From: Dehalogenimonas sp. THU2
Lineage (GTDB): Bacteria; Chloroflexota; Dehalococcoidia; Dehalococcoidales; Dehalococcoidaceae
NCBI RefSeq assembly: GCF_039749495.1
Contig: NZ_JBDLLU010000005.1
Span: 1-64,000, forward strand
DNA: 64,000 nucleotides
Direction of reading: 5' to 3'
Below the pieces are notes generated by a model. That model saw only the letters and a list, made by a program, of their open reading frames with translations. It was not told where the DNA came from and ran no database searches. Positions 53,627-61,357 of the stretch are shown here, one piece after another (position 1 is the stretch's first letter; the number at the start of each line of letters is the position of its first letter). The translations under genes were made by a program, and so were the position numbers.

Positions 53627-53700
53627 TGGGGATTCGTCTAGTGGTAGGACAGCAGACTCTGAATCTGCTTGCCCAGGTTCGAACCCTGGATCCCCAGCCA
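53627..53700 (+). tRNA. tRNA-Gln (CTG)
   Basis: Complete cloverleaf: acceptor TGGGGAT/ATCCCCA, anticodon stem GCAGA/TCTGC with loop CTCTGAA (anticodon CTG), T-arm CCAGG-TTCGAAC-CCTGG, CCA encoded. TATAAT at 53610-53615 with TTGCGG 18 bp before is the likely promoter for this and the next tRNA. Confidence 0.96.
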
Positions 53701-53709
53701 GCTCTTCAA

Positions 53710-53786
53710 GGCGCATTCGTCTAGCGGCCTAGGACGCTGCCCTCTCAAGGCAGAGATCACGGGTTCGAATCCCGTATGCGCTACCA
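53710..53786 (+). tRNA. tRNA-Glu (CTC)
   Basis: Acceptor GGCGCAT/ATGCGCT (first pair G-U), anticodon stem CTGCC/GGCAG with loop CTCTCAA (anticodon CTC), T-arm ACGGG-TTCGAAT-CCCGT, CCA encoded. Nine bp after tRNA-Gln, co-transcribed. Confidence 0.96.
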
Positions 53787-53839: not shown

Positions 53840-55318
53840 TTATTTCCTGGGAGCCATTGGGAATAAGTAATATTTCCGATTTAACAGGAAGAGCCCCACG
53901 ATTATTACAAATGCGATAACTCCGGCAATGAGTACCAGAGGCAGGGAAATTGTGAACCGGCCCGCGCTGTCATTATCCGTAACATCCTCAGGGACACTGA
54001 AATTGACCTCGAATCCGTTGATGCTCGCCAGGTAACTTCCCACGGCTGACCGGTTGATGATAAAGCTGACCACCTGATCGGCGCCGGGCTCCAGCACGAC
54101 ACTCCTGGTTTCAGCGACGGCATTATTCAGCAGCAAATCCATTTGGTAGGCGCCTGACACATCGCCCTCGTTAGCGACCGTAAACTCAACGGTCAGCTGC
54201 TTACCGCCACCGGGAGTGTCATCCACATCGAATCGCCATCCGCTGGTTTCAAACACCGCCGGAGAACCCAGAGTAGTAAATGAAAACTCCCCGGATGCAG
54301 TTTGGTTGCCGGATCCATCCGTGCTCCTGACCTTGAACGTATATGTCGTTGCCGGCGTCAAACCACTGAGCGTGGCGGAGTGGGAAGTCACCAGGGCCGC
54401 GTTACTAGAGGTGAGCGCTCCGGGACTATAGTCTACCGCGCCTGCCGCTTCTTCATCAGTGTTCCATGTAATGGTAGCGCTGGTTTTGGTGATGTCGATC
54501 GCCTGAACCCCGGAGATCAGCGGCGGTGTTTCATCCGGCAGGAGTACGAAGTTGGCAATGATCGTTTGATCGCTGTCCATGTCGATAGTTGTACTTGCCT
54601 GAGATGGGCTGGCTACGTTACCGGTCCAGCCCGCGAAGCGCCAACCCGCTGCCGGGGCAGCCGTTACGGTAACCCGGCTGTCCTGATCAATACTGTGGGC
54701 GCCAACCGCCGGATTAACCGTACCCTCTCCGGTTTTTTGGATGGTGAGCAAATAGGTCGGAACCGGCGGCGTTTCCTCGAAATTAGCCACGATGGTTTTG
54801 TCTGAGTTCATCAGGATGCTGGTGCTGGGCGTATTCGGGTCAGCTACCTCGCCGGTCCAGCTAATGAAAACCCACCCGGAAGCAGGGTAAGCCGTCAATA
54901 CAACCTGGCTGTTTTGCTCGTAATCGCCCGATGACGGGCTGACCGAACCGTTTCCGGATACCTGGATGGTAAGGGAGAAAGTCGGAGGCGGGGAAGTTAT
55001 CGAAAGATCAATGGTGACGGGCAGGCCTCGTTCAGGTAAAGTACCAGATCCGGCCGGAATGCCGTTTACGGTGAAGCTTATGCTATCGCCCGGGTTGGCA
55101 GCGTCCGCGGGAATATCCATACTGTAAGAACCACCGCTGGTGCCGGCGGAGACGCCCAAACTCGATTGGACGTTTGAGCCATCGGGTGCCGGACTGCCGT
55201 CAATGGTCACGCTGCCGTCAATAGCGTAAGGCTGTTGCGGTTGCGCCCGCACGGTAATCCCCGGCAGCAGAGAGGCCAGTAACAAAAAGGTAAGCACGAC
55301 CTTAACGGCGATTCTCAT
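53840..55318 (-). CDS. Secreted membrane-anchored protein with InlB repeats, FN3 and CARDB-like domain
   Basis: 492 residues: signal peptide (VVLTFLLLASLLPGITVRA), a carboxypeptidase-regulatory-like region, two divergent InlB B-repeats (about 110-182 and 184-258, each ending with GWTG-x-V then ANF), an FN3 domain (about 262-347), a CARDB-like domain (about 350-445) and a C-terminal helix (LPLVLIAGVIAFVIIVGLFL) with basic tail. Last gene of the protease operon, 70 bp after it. Cell-surface display is inferred. Confidence 0.85.
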   Translation of the reverse strand: MRIAVKVVLTFLLLASLLPGITVRAQPQQPYAIDGSVTIDGSPAPDGSNVQSSLGVSAGTSGGSYSMDIPADAANPGDSISFTVNGIPAGSGTLPERGLPVTIDLSITSPPPTFSLTIQVSGNGSVSPSSGDYEQNSQVVLTAYPASGWVFISWTGEVADPNTPSTSILMNSDKTIVANFEETPPVPTYLLTIQKTGEGTVNPAVGAHSIDQDSRVTVTAAPAAGWRFAGWTGNVASPSQASTTIDMDSDQTIIANFVLLPDETPPLISGVQAIDITKTSATITWNTDEEAAGAVDYSPGALTSSNAALVTSHSATLSGLTPATTYTFKVRSTDGSGNQTASGEFSFTTLGSPAVFETSGWRFDVDDTPGGGKQLTVEFTVANEGDVSGAYQMDLLLNNAVAETRSVVLEPGADQVVSFIINRSAVGSYLASINGFEVNFSVPEDVTDNDSAGRFTISLPLVLIAGVIAFVIIVGLFLLNRKYYLFPMAPRK

Positions 55319-55388
55319 TTTAAGCTTATCTCAATTCGTACATATTGTATTTCTTATCCAACGACAATATCAGCCATCTTCAAATTCA

Positions 55389-58300
55389 TCAGGTAATAGT
55401 AAGCGTTCGGGGACTGCTCATATAAACCCAATAAGCATTGCCCTGCGTCATTTCCGTTAACGTCGCCGGGCTTCCCGGAATGAACCTCGTCCAGATACCG
55501 GTCACGCCATCGTAATGCCAAACGATAACAACATCATCGATAATACCGGCTAAAACTGTTCCTATATCCGGGTCACCGGGCGCGGTGCCAAGGCTGATAA
55601 GATTCCAACCGGCAGTTAAAGTGATGTCATTCGATGGCGGTATTGTGCCTGAAACTGTCAGTGTCGCTGCTTCCGAAAGGTTGATCCAATATCCGACACC
55701 GCTGGTCATTTGGGTAAGCGACGAGGCAACTCCGGGAATATACCGGGTCCAGGCAGCGCCATCATAAGACCATACGATAACTACTTTATCGATAATGCCT
55801 GCCAAAACATCTGAAATGTCAGTCGAAACGGGAATCACCGGCAAGCCGATAAAATTCCAGCCGGCGATAAGTTCAAGCGTCGATGTTTCCGCCGGGACGG
55901 TCACGGTGATAGTTTCACTGTCGGAAAGACTACCGTCGGAGACCACCACATCGAAAGTGTAGACCGCTCCTCCCTGAGCCTCGGTTGGAGTCCAGGTGAA
56001 GACGCCGTCAGCAGTAATGGAGGCACCCGCGGGAATAGAGCCGCCGGCGCCGTCGGCCAGCGAAAAAGTCAAAATGTCAGCCGGTAAATCGGCGTCAGCA
56101 GCGGTGGCGGTGAAGGTGATCTCCACCAGTTCATCGCCTGATATAGCCCCGATCTCAGCCAGTACCGGGGCGACGTTGACCTCGTTTACGGTCACGGTGA
56201 TAGTTTCACTGTCGGATAGACCGCCGTCGGAGACCACCACATCAAAGGTGTACACCGCACCTCCCTGAGCCTCGGTTGGAGTCCAGGTAAAGACGCCACC
56301 TTCGGTCATGACGGCGCCAGCCGGGGCGCCGCCGTCCAGTGAGAACGTCAAAGTATCCGCCGGTACGTCAGCATCCACAGCGGCGGCGGTGAAGGTGATC
56401 TCCACTAGTTCATCCACCGATTGAGCCCCGATCTCAGCCAGCACCGGGGCGATGTTGACCTCGGCCACGGTAATGTCGAAGGTCTCGAAATCATCAAGAG
56501 CCGGGGTGCCGTTGTCAGTCACCCGGATAGTAACCGGGTAAACTCCCGGTCCCTGGTCCTCGGCCGGCGTCCAGGTAAAGACGCCGTCCTCAGTAATGGC
56601 GGCACCAGCAGGGGCGCCATCGTCCAGTGAGAAAATCAAAGTATCCGTCGGCACATCGACGTCAGCAGCGGTGGCGGTGAAGGTGATCTCCACCAGTTCA
56701 TCGCCTGATTTAGCCCCGATCGCGGCCAGCACCGGGGCGTCGTTGGCGTCAGGTTCAGCAAGTGTCTCAGGCAAATACAACCGCCCATGGCCGTGCGTGT
56801 CGTCATTCCCCGCAGCCCCCATGTCAACGGCATTAGATTCCAGATAATCCCTGACCTGAGCCGGAGTCCAGTCCGGGTGAACCTGAATTATGAGCGCCGC
56901 CGCCCCCGCCGCTACCGGTGTCGCCATCGAGGTGCCCTGCATCACGTAGTATTCAGAATTATCAATCCAATACAAACTGGCCGAGGTATAAATATCACCA
57001 TCCCGGGCCGAAATTACGACACTCCCCGGAGCCACAATTTCAGGTTTAAGGGGCGCTCCGGTGTCAACCCTGGGCCCCCGGCTGCTGAAGGGGGCGATTT
57101 CATCGAGCTCGTAGCCGTAGCTGTGCCCGGCACCTGAATAATCCAGCCAGGAGGCGCGAGTAACATAAGCCCCTATCGCGATGGCGCTATCGGCTTCAGC
57201 CGGAGAATTGAGAGTATAGGCCGGATCGGGATCAGCAAAAGTGACGTACCCGTTCCCGACATAGTACAAATGGAACAACTGAGCCGAGGATGAGTTGTTT
57301 TTAACCTTCAGATAATACGTCCCCGCCGGTTGCGAGGCTACGTTTGAATACTGGCTCTCAGTGCCTCTGAAGCTTTCATTCTGAAGGAACTGGGTCGAGC
57401 CGATCAGGTGCCGGCTGGAATTATAATACTCGAGTTCAAGATCATCGCTTATGCCGGGTCCGTCGAACCAAACCATATTGAAATATAGAGAAGCGGGGGT
57501 ATTGCCGGCGGTGATGGCGATAAAATCCGTTGAATCGTTGCCGGGGACGGTCCCGGAGTAGTGATCCGCGTCATTTCCGGAATTCCCGGCGGCAATCAAG
57601 ACGACCGCCCCCTGACTCACCGCATAATCCACCGCCTGACTCATGGCATCGGAGCCATCGTGGTGATCACTCCAGCCGCCGTAGCTCATGGTGATGATGT
57701 CCGCGTGATAAACATCGACGGCATCTTGAATGGCATTCACCATGGCTTCACTCGTCGCGGAAGCATTGGAGTCGTTCCCTATCTTAAGAAACACCAGGTC
57801 CGCTCCCGGAGCCATTCCGGCGTAAAGTCCGCTGGAAGCTGAACCATCGCCCAGAACGCTGCCCGTAACATGGGTGCCGTGGCCGGTATAATGGTTGGCA
57901 ACGGTCTCGTCCAACGACGGCCAGTTCGAATAATCCTTAACGATCGTTCCGGATGCCAGCGACGGGATGTCAGGATGACTCAAATCCAAACCGGAATCCA
58001 GCACCGCGATGGTAACCCCCGTGCCGTCAAGACCGTAAGAACCGCCTCTCAGCGCAGCCACATTAGTCGCCAGAGCCGCTTCATCATTTTGAGCCTGAAA
58101 AACCCGTTCGGCGGTATCCAGGTGTCGGACGTAGCTCTTGGCCGAGATATCGGACAGCCGGTCAACGGGCATATCGGCAATCAAAAATCCGTCAGGGTGC
58201 GCCCCGACAGGCGGGATCCAGGAATCAAGATAAACAATTACCCCCAGCGCTTCCAGTTCCGCAACCTGGGCGGCATCTGGCATCCGGCTGGAATACAGGA

Positions 58301-58592
58301 ATATTTTTTGCCGGTCGACGCTCTCTACCTGCAATCCCGCAGACTGCAGAATGCCCGCTACACCATCCGCCGATTGGCTTGCCTGGGCCGCCGCCAATCC
58401 GCCCAGGCTTTTGATCTGCTTTTTGGCCTCTATCTGCGCGCTGAGCAGTCCGCTGATCTTCTGGCCGAGGACTTGATCCCGGGCCTGAAGGGAGTGGGTT
58501 TCAGAGGAATCCCCAGCGAACATGCCACTGATGAGTACAATCAGCACCAGCAGGGCAAGACAAATCTGTTTCATTGCGTATTTTTTCATCAA
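55389..58592 (-). CDS. Large secreted S8 subtilisin-like serine protease
   Basis: 1067 residues. Signal peptide (QICLALLVLIVLISGMFAG), a pro-region (about 30-180), then the catalytic domain: Asp199 (VTIAVLDSGLDLSHPDI), His238 (GHGTHVTGSV), Asn337 (AAGNSGN), Ser555 (QGTSMATPVAAG). A PPC-like insert lies at about 365-450. Three Ig-like repeats (NxAPVLAxIGA...DELVEITFTA) cover about 615-905. Two AGWN repeats (AGWNFIGLPV; AGWNLISLGT) end the protein. The start directly follows the lipoprotein stop. Confidence 0.93.
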   Translation of the reverse strand: MMKKYAMKQICLALLVLIVLISGMFAGDSSETHSLQARDQVLGQKISGLLSAQIEAKKQIKSLGGLAAAQASQSADGVAGILQSAGLQVESVDRQKIFLYSSRMPDAAQVAELEALGVIVYLDSWIPPVGAHPDGFLIADMPVDRLSDISAKSYVRHLDTAERVFQAQNDEAALATNVAALRGGSYGLDGTGVTIAVLDSGLDLSHPDIPSLASGTIVKDYSNWPSLDETVANHYTGHGTHVTGSVLGDGSASSGLYAGMAPGADLVFLKIGNDSNASATSEAMVNAIQDAVDVYHADIITMSYGGWSDHHDGSDAMSQAVDYAVSQGAVVLIAAGNSGNDADHYSGTVPGNDSTDFIAITAGNTPASLYFNMVWFDGPGISDDLELEYYNSSRHLIGSTQFLQNESFRGTESQYSNVASQPAGTYYLKVKNNSSSAQLFHLYYVGNGYVTFADPDPAYTLNSPAEADSAIAIGAYVTRASWLDYSGAGHSYGYELDEIAPFSSRGPRVDTGAPLKPEIVAPGSVVISARDGDIYTSASLYWIDNSEYYVMQGTSMATPVAAGAAALIIQVHPDWTPAQVRDYLESNAVDMGAAGNDDTHGHGRLYLPETLAEPDANDAPVLAAIGAKSGDELVEITFTATAADVDVPTDTLIFSLDDGAPAGAAITEDGVFTWTPAEDQGPGVYPVTIRVTDNGTPALDDFETFDITVAEVNIAPVLAEIGAQSVDELVEITFTAAAVDADVPADTLTFSLDGGAPAGAVMTEGGVFTWTPTEAQGGAVYTFDVVVSDGGLSDSETITVTVNEVNVAPVLAEIGAISGDELVEITFTATAADADLPADILTFSLADGAGGSIPAGASITADGVFTWTPTEAQGGAVYTFDVVVSDGSLSDSETITVTVPAETSTLELIAGWNFIGLPVIPVSTDISDVLAGIIDKVVIVWSYDGAAWTRYIPGVASSLTQMTSGVGYWINLSEAATLTVSGTIPPSNDITLTAGWNLISLGTAPGDPDIGTVLAGIIDDVVIVWHYDGVTGIWTRFIPGSPATLTEMTQGNAYWVYMSSPRTLTIT

Positions 58593-59072
58593 TCAGGATT
58601 GCGGACCGGCTTGCGGCTGGATAATGCCCTCCGCGGTATCGAGTTTCACCACCCAGGCTTTGGCGGCCAGTTCTTCAAGCGCGTCCACGGGGGCATCGGC
58701 AATAAGAAAGCCGTATGGGTGAGCGCCCACCGGAGGTATCCATGAATTCATATATAAAGTAATGCCCAGTTCATGGAGATCTGTTATTTGAGACGGATCC
58801 AGGGGTCCCGTCAAATAAATATACAGCCTTTGCAGCCGTAAATCGTCCACGTTCATCCCTTGAGCAAGCATCTCATCCAGCCTGGTTTCCGTAGGCTGCT
58901 CAAGTTGAGACAACCTCAGATTCATCTGTGAAATCAATTCAAGGCTGGCTTTTTCCGTTAATTGCTGATCCGGGCCGGTTGAAAAACACGAGGCAAGAGC
59001 AAGCAGGAAAACACCCGCAATCAACAAGGATAAAGTACGAAAAGTATATCCAGGGAATTTTCGCATCGTCAT
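58593..59072 (-). CDS. Lipoprotein homologous to the protease pro-region
   Basis: 159 residues. Signal peptide with lipobox LASC (Cys29), then a soluble domain. Residues 104-150 align with residues 118-164 of the adjacent protease: both have SWIPPVGAHP, GFLIAD, PVD and LDTAE, about 29 of 47 identical by eye. Stop and protease start are adjacent, so expression is coupled. By family logic, pro-regions act as inhibitors or folding aids; a stand-alone lipid-anchored copy may control the protease. ATG 59072 or the ATG two codons later. Confidence 0.75.
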   Translation of the reverse strand: MTMRKFPGYTFRTLSLLIAGVFLLALASCFSTGPDQQLTEKASLELISQMNLRLSQLEQPTETRLDEMLAQGMNVDDLRLQRLYIYLTGPLDPSQITDLHELGITLYMNSWIPPVGAHPYGFLIADAPVDALEELAAKAWVVKLDTAEGIIQPQAGPQS

Positions 59073-59376: not shown

Positions 59377-59517
59377 TCATTGAGTAATTCCTTCCGTTAT
59401 TCGCCCGGCGACCGCGATACCCCAGGAATCATAGTCCCGGTACTCCAATCGCGCCAGCGATTCAAGCAGATCCGGCTGCGCTTGCCTGTGCCCGTTATAG
59501 CTTATGACGTTGCACAT
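59377..59517 (-). pseudogene. Duplicated fragment of the glmS 5' end
   Basis: A 46-codon frame begins [20 protein letters not shown], nearly the N-terminus of GlmS ([20 protein letters not shown]), and keeps LARLEYR and YDS before diverging and stopping. It lies 49 bp after the glmS stop, and the DNA match extends into the bases before the ATG (TAAAATGTG). The rest of the enzyme is missing, so it is a truncated tandem duplicate. Confidence 0.85.
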
Positions 59518-59566
59518 TTTACACTTTCTTTCAACATCCCCTCCCTCATAAGTAGACGTGGATATA

Positions 59567-61357
59567 CTATTCAACGGTAACGCTCTTGGCCAGGTTGCGC
59601 GGCATGTCGATAGGACATCCTCGCTCCAGGGCGGTGTAATAGGCAAGAAGTTGCAGCGCAACCGCGTTTAACATTGGCGATACGAGGTTTTCTACTTCCG
59701 GTATATGGATCACTCGGTCAACCAGATTGTCGATATCGCTCTCCCTCGCCGGAGTGATGGCTATTACGGGGGCGCCTCGCACCTTGATCTCTCGGATAGT
59801 GTTCAACATGGCCTCGTATGTTGCATCACGGCTCAGGATCACGACTACGGGTGTTTCCGCCGACAAGAGAGCCAATGGTCCGTGTTTCAGCTCACCCCCG
59901 GCGCAGCCTTCGGCGTGAATATATGAGATTTCCTTGAGCTTGAGTGCGCCCTCGAGAGCGATTGGATAATTGAGACCCCGCCCGATGAAGATGACGTTGT
60001 TATATCCGGCCAGGTACTTGCCGCATGATTGTATGTCCTGGTGATTATCGATAATCTGCTGGATATTACTGGGCAGGTGCCGGAAGGCACCCGTTAATCT
60101 GTCCCGGTCCCGCCGATCCAACCGAGAGGAAGAGAGCAAAAGACCATAGATCACTTTCAATTGGGCAGTAAAACTCTTTGTTGCGGCAACGCTGATTTCC
60201 GGGCCGGCTCTGGTATACCATGTCTCATCCGCAAGGCGGCTTGCTGAACATCCCGGAACGTTGGTGATCACAAGGAGTTTCATACCCTCTTTTCGAAGGG
60301 AGCGCATGGCTATGAGAGCGTCTGCGGTCTCGCCGGATTGGGTGATGATAATTCCAAGGTCTTCTGATATGCGATGACGCTGGTAATTGAATTCCGAAGC
60401 GATTTCAATGTGGACTGATAAGCCTAACAATTCCTGTATGAGGTACTTGGCGATCAGCCCGGCGTGGTAGGATGTCCCACAGGCTAGCAGAAGGATGGTT
60501 GGCGGCGGGTTGGAAGACAGGATTTCTATAAGTCCCGGATCACTTCCGCCGGAGTGGGCTAGGACGCTGTTTGACTCCCGTATTATCCGTGGTTGCTCCC
60601 GGATTTCTTTGATCATGAAATGCTCGTGGCCGCCTTTTTGGGCCTGGATGGCGGTCCATTCCACCTCTTTGATCTCGGGAGAAATTTCGCGGCCGTCACG
60701 CCACAGTCTTACTCCCTGGCGCGTGATCACCGCGAGTTCATTTTCCTCCATGAAGATGACCTTTTTGGTGTAATCGAGGATGGCCGGCACATCTGAAGCC
60801 ACCCAGTTTTCACCTTCGCCCAGACCGATTATCAGCGGGCTGCCGCAACGGGCGACGACCAGCTTGTCCTGCTCCTTGTGATGAATCACGGCGATGGCGT
60901 AGGAGCCATCGATCTGGTTCAAGGTGGCGCGGACCGCGGAAGCCAGATCGCCCTGATAGTTTTCCTCGATGAGGTGAGAGATAACCTCGGTGTCGGTGTC
61001 CGAAGAAAACGTGTGGCCGCCGGCAAGAAGGCGTGCTTTTATTTGCTGGTGATTGTTGATGGTTCCGTTGTGAACGACGGCGATGTTTCGGGTGCAGTCA
61101 TAATGCGGGTGAGCGTTGGCCTGATTCGGCTCCCCGCAGGTGGCCCACCGGGTGTGGCCGATGCCGGAGGTACCTTCAAGCGGCTCAGAAGTCGCCGCCA
61201 GGTCAGCCACCCGGACAACGTCCTTCAGTACCCTGATGCTGCCATCAAGGACGGCAATACCGCAGGAATCATAGCCCCGATACTCCAGTCGCGCCAGCGA
61301 CTCAAGCAGGTTGGCCTGCGCCTGCCTGTGCCCGATATAACCCACAACGCCACACAT
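59567..61357 (-). CDS. glmS: Glutamine-fructose-6-phosphate aminotransferase
   Basis: Makes glucosamine-6-phosphate. 596 residues: N-terminal glutaminase with Cys2 nucleophile ([10 protein letters not shown]), [16 protein letters not shown]-terminal isomerase with two SIS domains ([39 protein letters not shown]) and the terminal LAKSVTVE. Follows glmU by 85 bp. No glmS ribozyme is evident. Confidence 0.96.

Follow-up and report, generated by a model that had tools for sequence, protein, structure and literature searches.

How a large secreted protease might be held and kept in check at the cell surface is the question raised by three adjacent genes in a 1.84 Mb genome of the class Dehalococcoidia, whose members, like many methanogens, are to our knowledge understood to be without an ordinary peptidoglycan wall. 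The three open reading frames lie within positions 53840-59072 of the window (the whole 64,000-nucleotide stretch of DNA analysed), all on the minus strand and in the order lipoprotein, S8 protease and membrane protein (Table 1). An earlier note on this DNA had described them as tightly spaced genes of one strand, and the coordinates bear this out: the gap between genes 1 and 2 is 0 bp, with TGA followed directly by TTG-ATG, and that between genes 2 and 3 is 70 bp. Gene 2 may start at this TTG or, equally possibly, at the in-frame ATG at 58589. No terminator-like site was found in the 70-bp gap, and the one weak promoter-like match there (9/12) does not stand out in a region where such matches are common. 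The short gaps and the lack of a terminator-like site between genes 2 and 3 fit the operon that the note had proposed, and the three genes are probably co-transcribed. The full trio was seen only here among the genomes searched, at odds with a three-gene order conserved in relatives. The best reading of the locus is as two gene pairs nested together, one formed by a propeptide lipoprotein and a protease, the other by an AGWN tail and a GSPAP anchor. Just beyond the end of gene 3, on the opposite strand, lie tRNA-Gln(CTG) and tRNA-Glu(CTC) (window 53627-53786, plus strand). A decayed 5' fragment of glmS (window 59377-59661, minus strand) sits just downstream of the intact glmS (59567-61357), matching the GlmS N-terminus at 28 of 36 residues before a stop.

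Table 1. Positions in the window of the three genes, their domains and the gap between genes 2 and 3.
Feature	Position	Strand	Basis
Gene 1: lipoprotein, 159 aa, stand-alone subtilisin-type propeptide (predicted)	58593..59072	-	ORF, lipobox, AlphaFold2 and structural comparison
Gene 1, propeptide-like domain, residues 70-154	58611..58865	-	47% identity to protease propeptide, E 9e-26
Gene 2: secreted S8 protease (predicted), 1067 aa from TTG	55389..58592	-	ORF, Pfam
Gene 2, propeptide, residues about 55-168	58089..58430	-	Similarity to gene 1
Gene 2, S8 catalytic domain (D199, H238, N337, S555)	56784..58025	-	Pfam match split by insertion
Gene 2, three Ig-like domains (He_PIG/Big_9)	55896..56687	-	Pfam
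Gene 2, AGWNx2 C-terminal domain, residues 906-1067, proposed docking module	55392..55877	-	AlphaFold2, pLDDT 95.4
Gap between genes 2 and 3, 70 bp	55319..55388	-	Terminator/promoter scan
Gene 3: membrane-anchored partner (proposed), 492 aa	53840..55318	-	ORF, Pfam
Gene 3, GSPAP N-terminal domain, residues 26-107, proposed AGWN receptor	54998..55243	-	Order-wide domain search
Gene 3, two InlB-like repeats (Flg_new_2)	54545..54976	-	Pfam
Gene 3, fibronectin type III domain (fn3)	54284..54514	-	Pfam
Gene 3, C-terminal transmembrane segment, then basic tail	53882..53965	-	Hydropathy

Gene 2 (P0002) is predicted to encode an S8 protease, its proteolytic function being read from the sequence: Pfam Peptidase_S8 matches at 1.3e-50 (172.8 bits against a cut-off of 21.8), and the triad D199/H238/S555 and the oxyanion residue N337 are present. 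Of the 1067-residue protease described earlier, the S8 domain and the Ig-like stretches were recovered with Pfam, and the two AGWN repeats (residues 906-1067) are real. The protein lacks a membrane anchor, and with 34.7 bits against 300 it falls below the NCBIfam equivalog cut-off for dentilisin PrtP (NF033595). The surprise once expressed at a large exoprotease in such an organism loses force, as S8 matches occur at four other places in this genome.

Gene 1 carries the lipobox LASC (Cys29), and its secreted chain of 159 aa has no catalytic domain. It had been noted before as a pro-region lipoprotein, which stands; what was missed is its kinship with the protease's own propeptide, of which it is a paralogue (47% identity over 85 aa, E 9e-26). 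The AlphaFold2 model, built with 15 homologues (pLDDT 88, pTM 0.79), has the b-a-b-b-a-b topology of the propeptide fold. Its top VIA-align match was ProN-Tk-SP (Z 8.8, rmsd 2.5, 84 aligned), and other matches included Tk-subtilisin propeptides (Z 5.9-6.6), CspB (5.8), BPN' (5.5) and the I9 inhibitor POIA1 (Z 5.4, rmsd 2.8, 69 aligned); subtilisin propeptides ranked first, unrelated ferredoxin-like folds came after them at about Z 5, and Foldseek matches were weak. Gene 1 was not matched by the Pfam I9 model, which marks the classical family of propeptide sequences and not the wider fold class, nor by any other Pfam family at E up to 1. The protease's own propeptide has no Pfam match either, so the sequence family is divergent. 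A pattern scan of the genome contigs with gene 1 (P0001) gave no relatives, and a propeptide profile gave no convincing sequence relatives in the PDB. The last residues of the model are disordered, as would be expected of a tail meant for an active-site cleft. Homology and model together identify gene 1 as a predicted stand-alone copy of the protease's own propeptide, which by analogy may inhibit or chaperone its cognate protease.

The lipoprotein/protease pair, with the lipoprotein first, also occurs in G001, G041, G084, G108 and G144, giving six genomes with this one, distant families included. Exceptions are a lone propeptide lipoprotein without an adjoining protease in G342 and two proteases without an adjoining lipoprotein in G144. 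A propeptide paralogue adjoining its source could be the degenerate leftover of a protease-gene duplication; however, gene 1 is intact, with signal peptide and lipobox, its fold is kept and the lipoprotein-first pair extends to distant families, all of which makes this origin very improbable. The two prodomains of G084 are 79% identical to each other and 66% and 71% identical to their respective G041 orthologues, a pattern expected under concerted evolution, which suggests that a common partner constrains both. The propeptide lipoproteins of G041 (L016 9041-9775) and G084 (L017 3778-4530) are extended at the N-terminus by a domain of some 90 aa that is OB-like by eye and, in the L017 lipoprotein, has no Pfam match.

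Stand-alone subtilisin propeptide-like inhibitors include POIA1, the yeast proteinase B inhibitor, Plasmodium SUB1-ProM and TgMIC5 (PMC6993865). Gene 1 resembles them as a propeptide fold in a separate protein, and the SUB1-ProM gene similarly adjoins subtilases (PMC6993865). Unlike these inhibitors, gene 1 would be a bacterial membrane lipoprotein, first in its operon, beside a protease that keeps its own propeptide, and its inhibitory role is putative. In Aeromonas sobria, ORF2 is a dedicated external chaperone and inhibitor of the adjacent subtilase ASP, and its C-terminal tail meets the active site (PMC5638518). This adjacent-gene partner of a subtilase is like gene 1 by description and differs from it in that ASP has no propeptide and ORF2 is encoded downstream (PMC5638518). 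In Clostridium CspB (4i0w), an S8 protease with a jellyroll inside it, the prodomain is both chaperone and inhibitor and works in trans (PMC3567191). In gene 2 the Pfam S8 match is split by an insertion. We know of no separate propeptide gene for CspB, in contrast to the one present here. As with the known propeptide-like inhibitors and external chaperones, gene 1, tethered at the membrane as a lipoprotein, would help the protease to fold and/or cover its active site with the flexible C-terminal tail, a restraint that would hold until or unless the protease was wanted.

Gene 3 (P0003) has a signal peptide and a C-terminal transmembrane segment, both supported by hydropathy. The InlB repeats, FN3 domain and membrane anchor previously attributed to it were recovered by Pfam and hydropathy, whereas the CARDB match stayed below its cut-off (17.2 against 22.7 bits). 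We name its N-terminal domain GSPAP, after the motif GSPAPxG; neither this domain nor AGWN has a sequence match in Pfam, NCBIfam or PDB. Across the order (61 genomes), AGWN was found in 12 genomes and GSPAP in the same 12 and two marginal ones, all 12 AGWN genomes thus carrying GSPAP (Fisher 5e-11). GSPAP stood directly downstream of AGWN, in the same orientation, in 16 of 20 cases (expected 0.015), and never upstream or opposite. Throughout the class (294 genomes; AGWN in 119, GSPAP in 152), 26 of the 34 best GSPAP matches were directly behind AGWN. The same order was found in five archaeal methanogen genomes (four Methanoculleus, one Methanolinea), with GSPAP directly downstream of AGWN in 25/29 cases (expected 0.07) and the two genes overlapping by 4 bp at loci L081 and L084. 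Of 294 genomes from the archaeal phylum, 133 had AGWN and 91 had GSPAP; among the 60 best GSPAP matches, 47 came after an AGWN, the median distance being 113 nt. Across the pair counts there was one reverse-order case and none on opposite strands; in the five methanogens, 13 of the 37 AGWN matches lacked a partner within 1.5 kb, some of these matches being near contig ends. Over 28 pairs, AGWN and GSPAP also diverge in step (Mantel r 0.70, p 1e-4), as linked genes do even without binding.

As judged from these sequences, the AGWN-GSPAP linkage is statistically very strong and independent of the protease. The conserved pair is AGWN and GSPAP whatever the passenger, and gene 3 is therefore linked, by the same comparisons, to the AGWN tail and not to the protease. 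Even in a genome of the same genus without the protease (G006), a full-length gene 3 homologue, 50% identical, still stands behind an AGWN protein that is not a protease. The suggestion that gene 3 is a docking partner fits this evidence, but as a partner of the AGWN tail, not of the protease as such.

The proposed tail and receptor occupy regular positions in their proteins. In 36 of 39 proteins the chain continues for no more than 17 aa beyond AGWN, and the AGWN-tailed proteins are without a C-terminal membrane helix; GSPAP comes after the signal peptide in nearly all of its proteins. A C-terminal module was present in all 31 GSPAP proteins with a readable end, namely a transmembrane segment (22), a dockerin-like module (2), a CFI-box (3) or AGWN itself (4). 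Natural fusions occur at L068-L071, and that of L069 is a single polypeptide made up of S8 protease, GSPAP and AGWNx2 parts. Passengers of AGWN comprise S8 proteases, CCP_MauG di-haem peroxidases, ice-binding-like/YDG, DUF3344/PEGA, Ig-rich and unassigned proteins. The AGWN-tailed di-haem cytochrome c peroxidases of MauG type (L034 3537-6257, L035 4576-8016, L048 5388-8834) are possibly surface-displayed redox enzymes. The small secreted GSPAP proteins of L068 (1546-2130) and L070 (3684-4352) have a single terminal AGWN unit that looks circularly permuted, with the body first and the GWN strand last. Two GSPAP proteins without a membrane helix (L036 9814-10383, L046 341-2335) end in a dockerin-like repeat, which suggests chained docking.

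Relatives of the protease offer a natural contrast. The one in G001 lacks AGWN and gene 3 and has its own transmembrane segment instead, and those in G041 and G084, also without AGWN, have a dockerin instead (read from sequence in G041 by likeness to G084), G084 having an adjoining gene for a transmembrane-anchored cohesin. Since proteases without AGWN carry another fastening and GSPAP follows AGWN, AGWN would stand in the place of the fastening module and GSPAP in that of the receptor, and physical binding of AGWN to GSPAP is the likeliest explanation of these patterns. Alternatively, AGWN might bind an S-layer or surface glycan, and the GSPAP protein would be a separate envelope structural protein that is merely co-expressed. 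Unrelated envelope genes are often grouped in surface-protein operons, and AGWN occurs without detected GSPAP in many archaeal genomes (133 vs 91 of 294), but we consider this rather unlikely, given that order and spacing hardly vary across two domains of life, that direct fusions exist and that GSPAP always stands ahead of an attachment-type C-terminal module. It is less probable still, and in our view quite doubtful, that GSPAP is an assembly or secretion helper of AGWN-tailed proteins and not a permanent anchor: its position nearly always after its passenger is one often taken by dedicated chaperones, but the large stalk-like middles, and ends formed by a transmembrane segment, a dockerin or a CFI-box, point to a persistent function at the surface.

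Docking of AGWN on GSPAP, the favoured explanation, would resemble the cohesin-dockerin system, where a C-terminal module of the enzyme docks on a membrane-anchored partner that is often encoded nearby. The dockerin and cohesin Pfam models gave no match in gene 2 or gene 3, and cohesin-dockerin is itself seen in the sister protease locus L017 of G084 (Dehalococcoidales). There a single chain (L017 4685-11074) combines S8, C11 (clostripain) and dockerin, and the transmembrane-anchored cohesin gene comes next. A further parallel is the Sulfolobus S-layer, a two-dimensional lattice whose membrane stalk is trimeric, in which the large secreted protein SlaA is held by SlaB, a beta-domain protein with a transmembrane anchor (PMC6911244). 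The AGWN-GSPAP model shares with it a secreted protein and a transmembrane-anchored holder, and differs in that many different passengers bear one type of tail.

The AlphaFold2 model of AGWNx2 (pLDDT 95.4, pTM 0.88) had no convincing match in the PDB (Foldseek best E 0.044, probability 0.11; VIA-align best Z 3.7), which does not by itself prove a new fold. In BFVD, the model of an uncultured marine phage protein (A0A8D9C8P8) matches the AGWNx2 model (window 55392-55898) at E 1.6e-6 and TM 0.65, hinting at a relative; a scan of viral contigs found none. No description of the AGWN-GSPAP pair was found in the open-access papers searched, which include few of the subscription journals, and the pair appears to be undescribed in the searchable literature.

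Taken together, the secreted multidomain S8 protease, ending in AGWNx2 and without its own anchor, would dock through this tail on the GSPAP domain of gene 3, with the InlB/FN3/CARDB-like middle as a stalk and the C-terminal helix in the membrane, while the lipoprotein would chaperone or restrain the protease. This model, which we think somewhat likelier to hold than to fail, builds on several observations: gene 1 is homologous to the propeptide and is predicted to share its fold, both pairs recur, and AGWN and GSPAP keep a fixed order and terminal positions, occur fused and diverge together. In Dehalococcoidia and in methanogenic archaea, the same non-covalent docking pair would serve a wide range of further passengers. 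The wider proposal, for which we see evenly balanced prospects, is that AGWN-GSPAP is an undescribed docking system widespread in Bacteria and Archaea, displaying diverse enzymes and adhesins on protein-based envelopes, like cohesin-dockerin in function and made of two unrelated, unnamed domains, with an AGWN fold possibly not yet solved.

With its membrane-tethered propeptide, the locus would add a bacterial example in which a stand-alone subtilase propeptide accompanies a protease equipped with its own. For Dehalococcoidia and many methanogens, a shared two-gene module of tail and anchor would be a testable answer to how exoenzymes and adhesins are held at the surface. The AGWN-GSPAP module would also allow many surface proteins now called 'hypothetical' to be named, and would be a new attachment pair of modular build.
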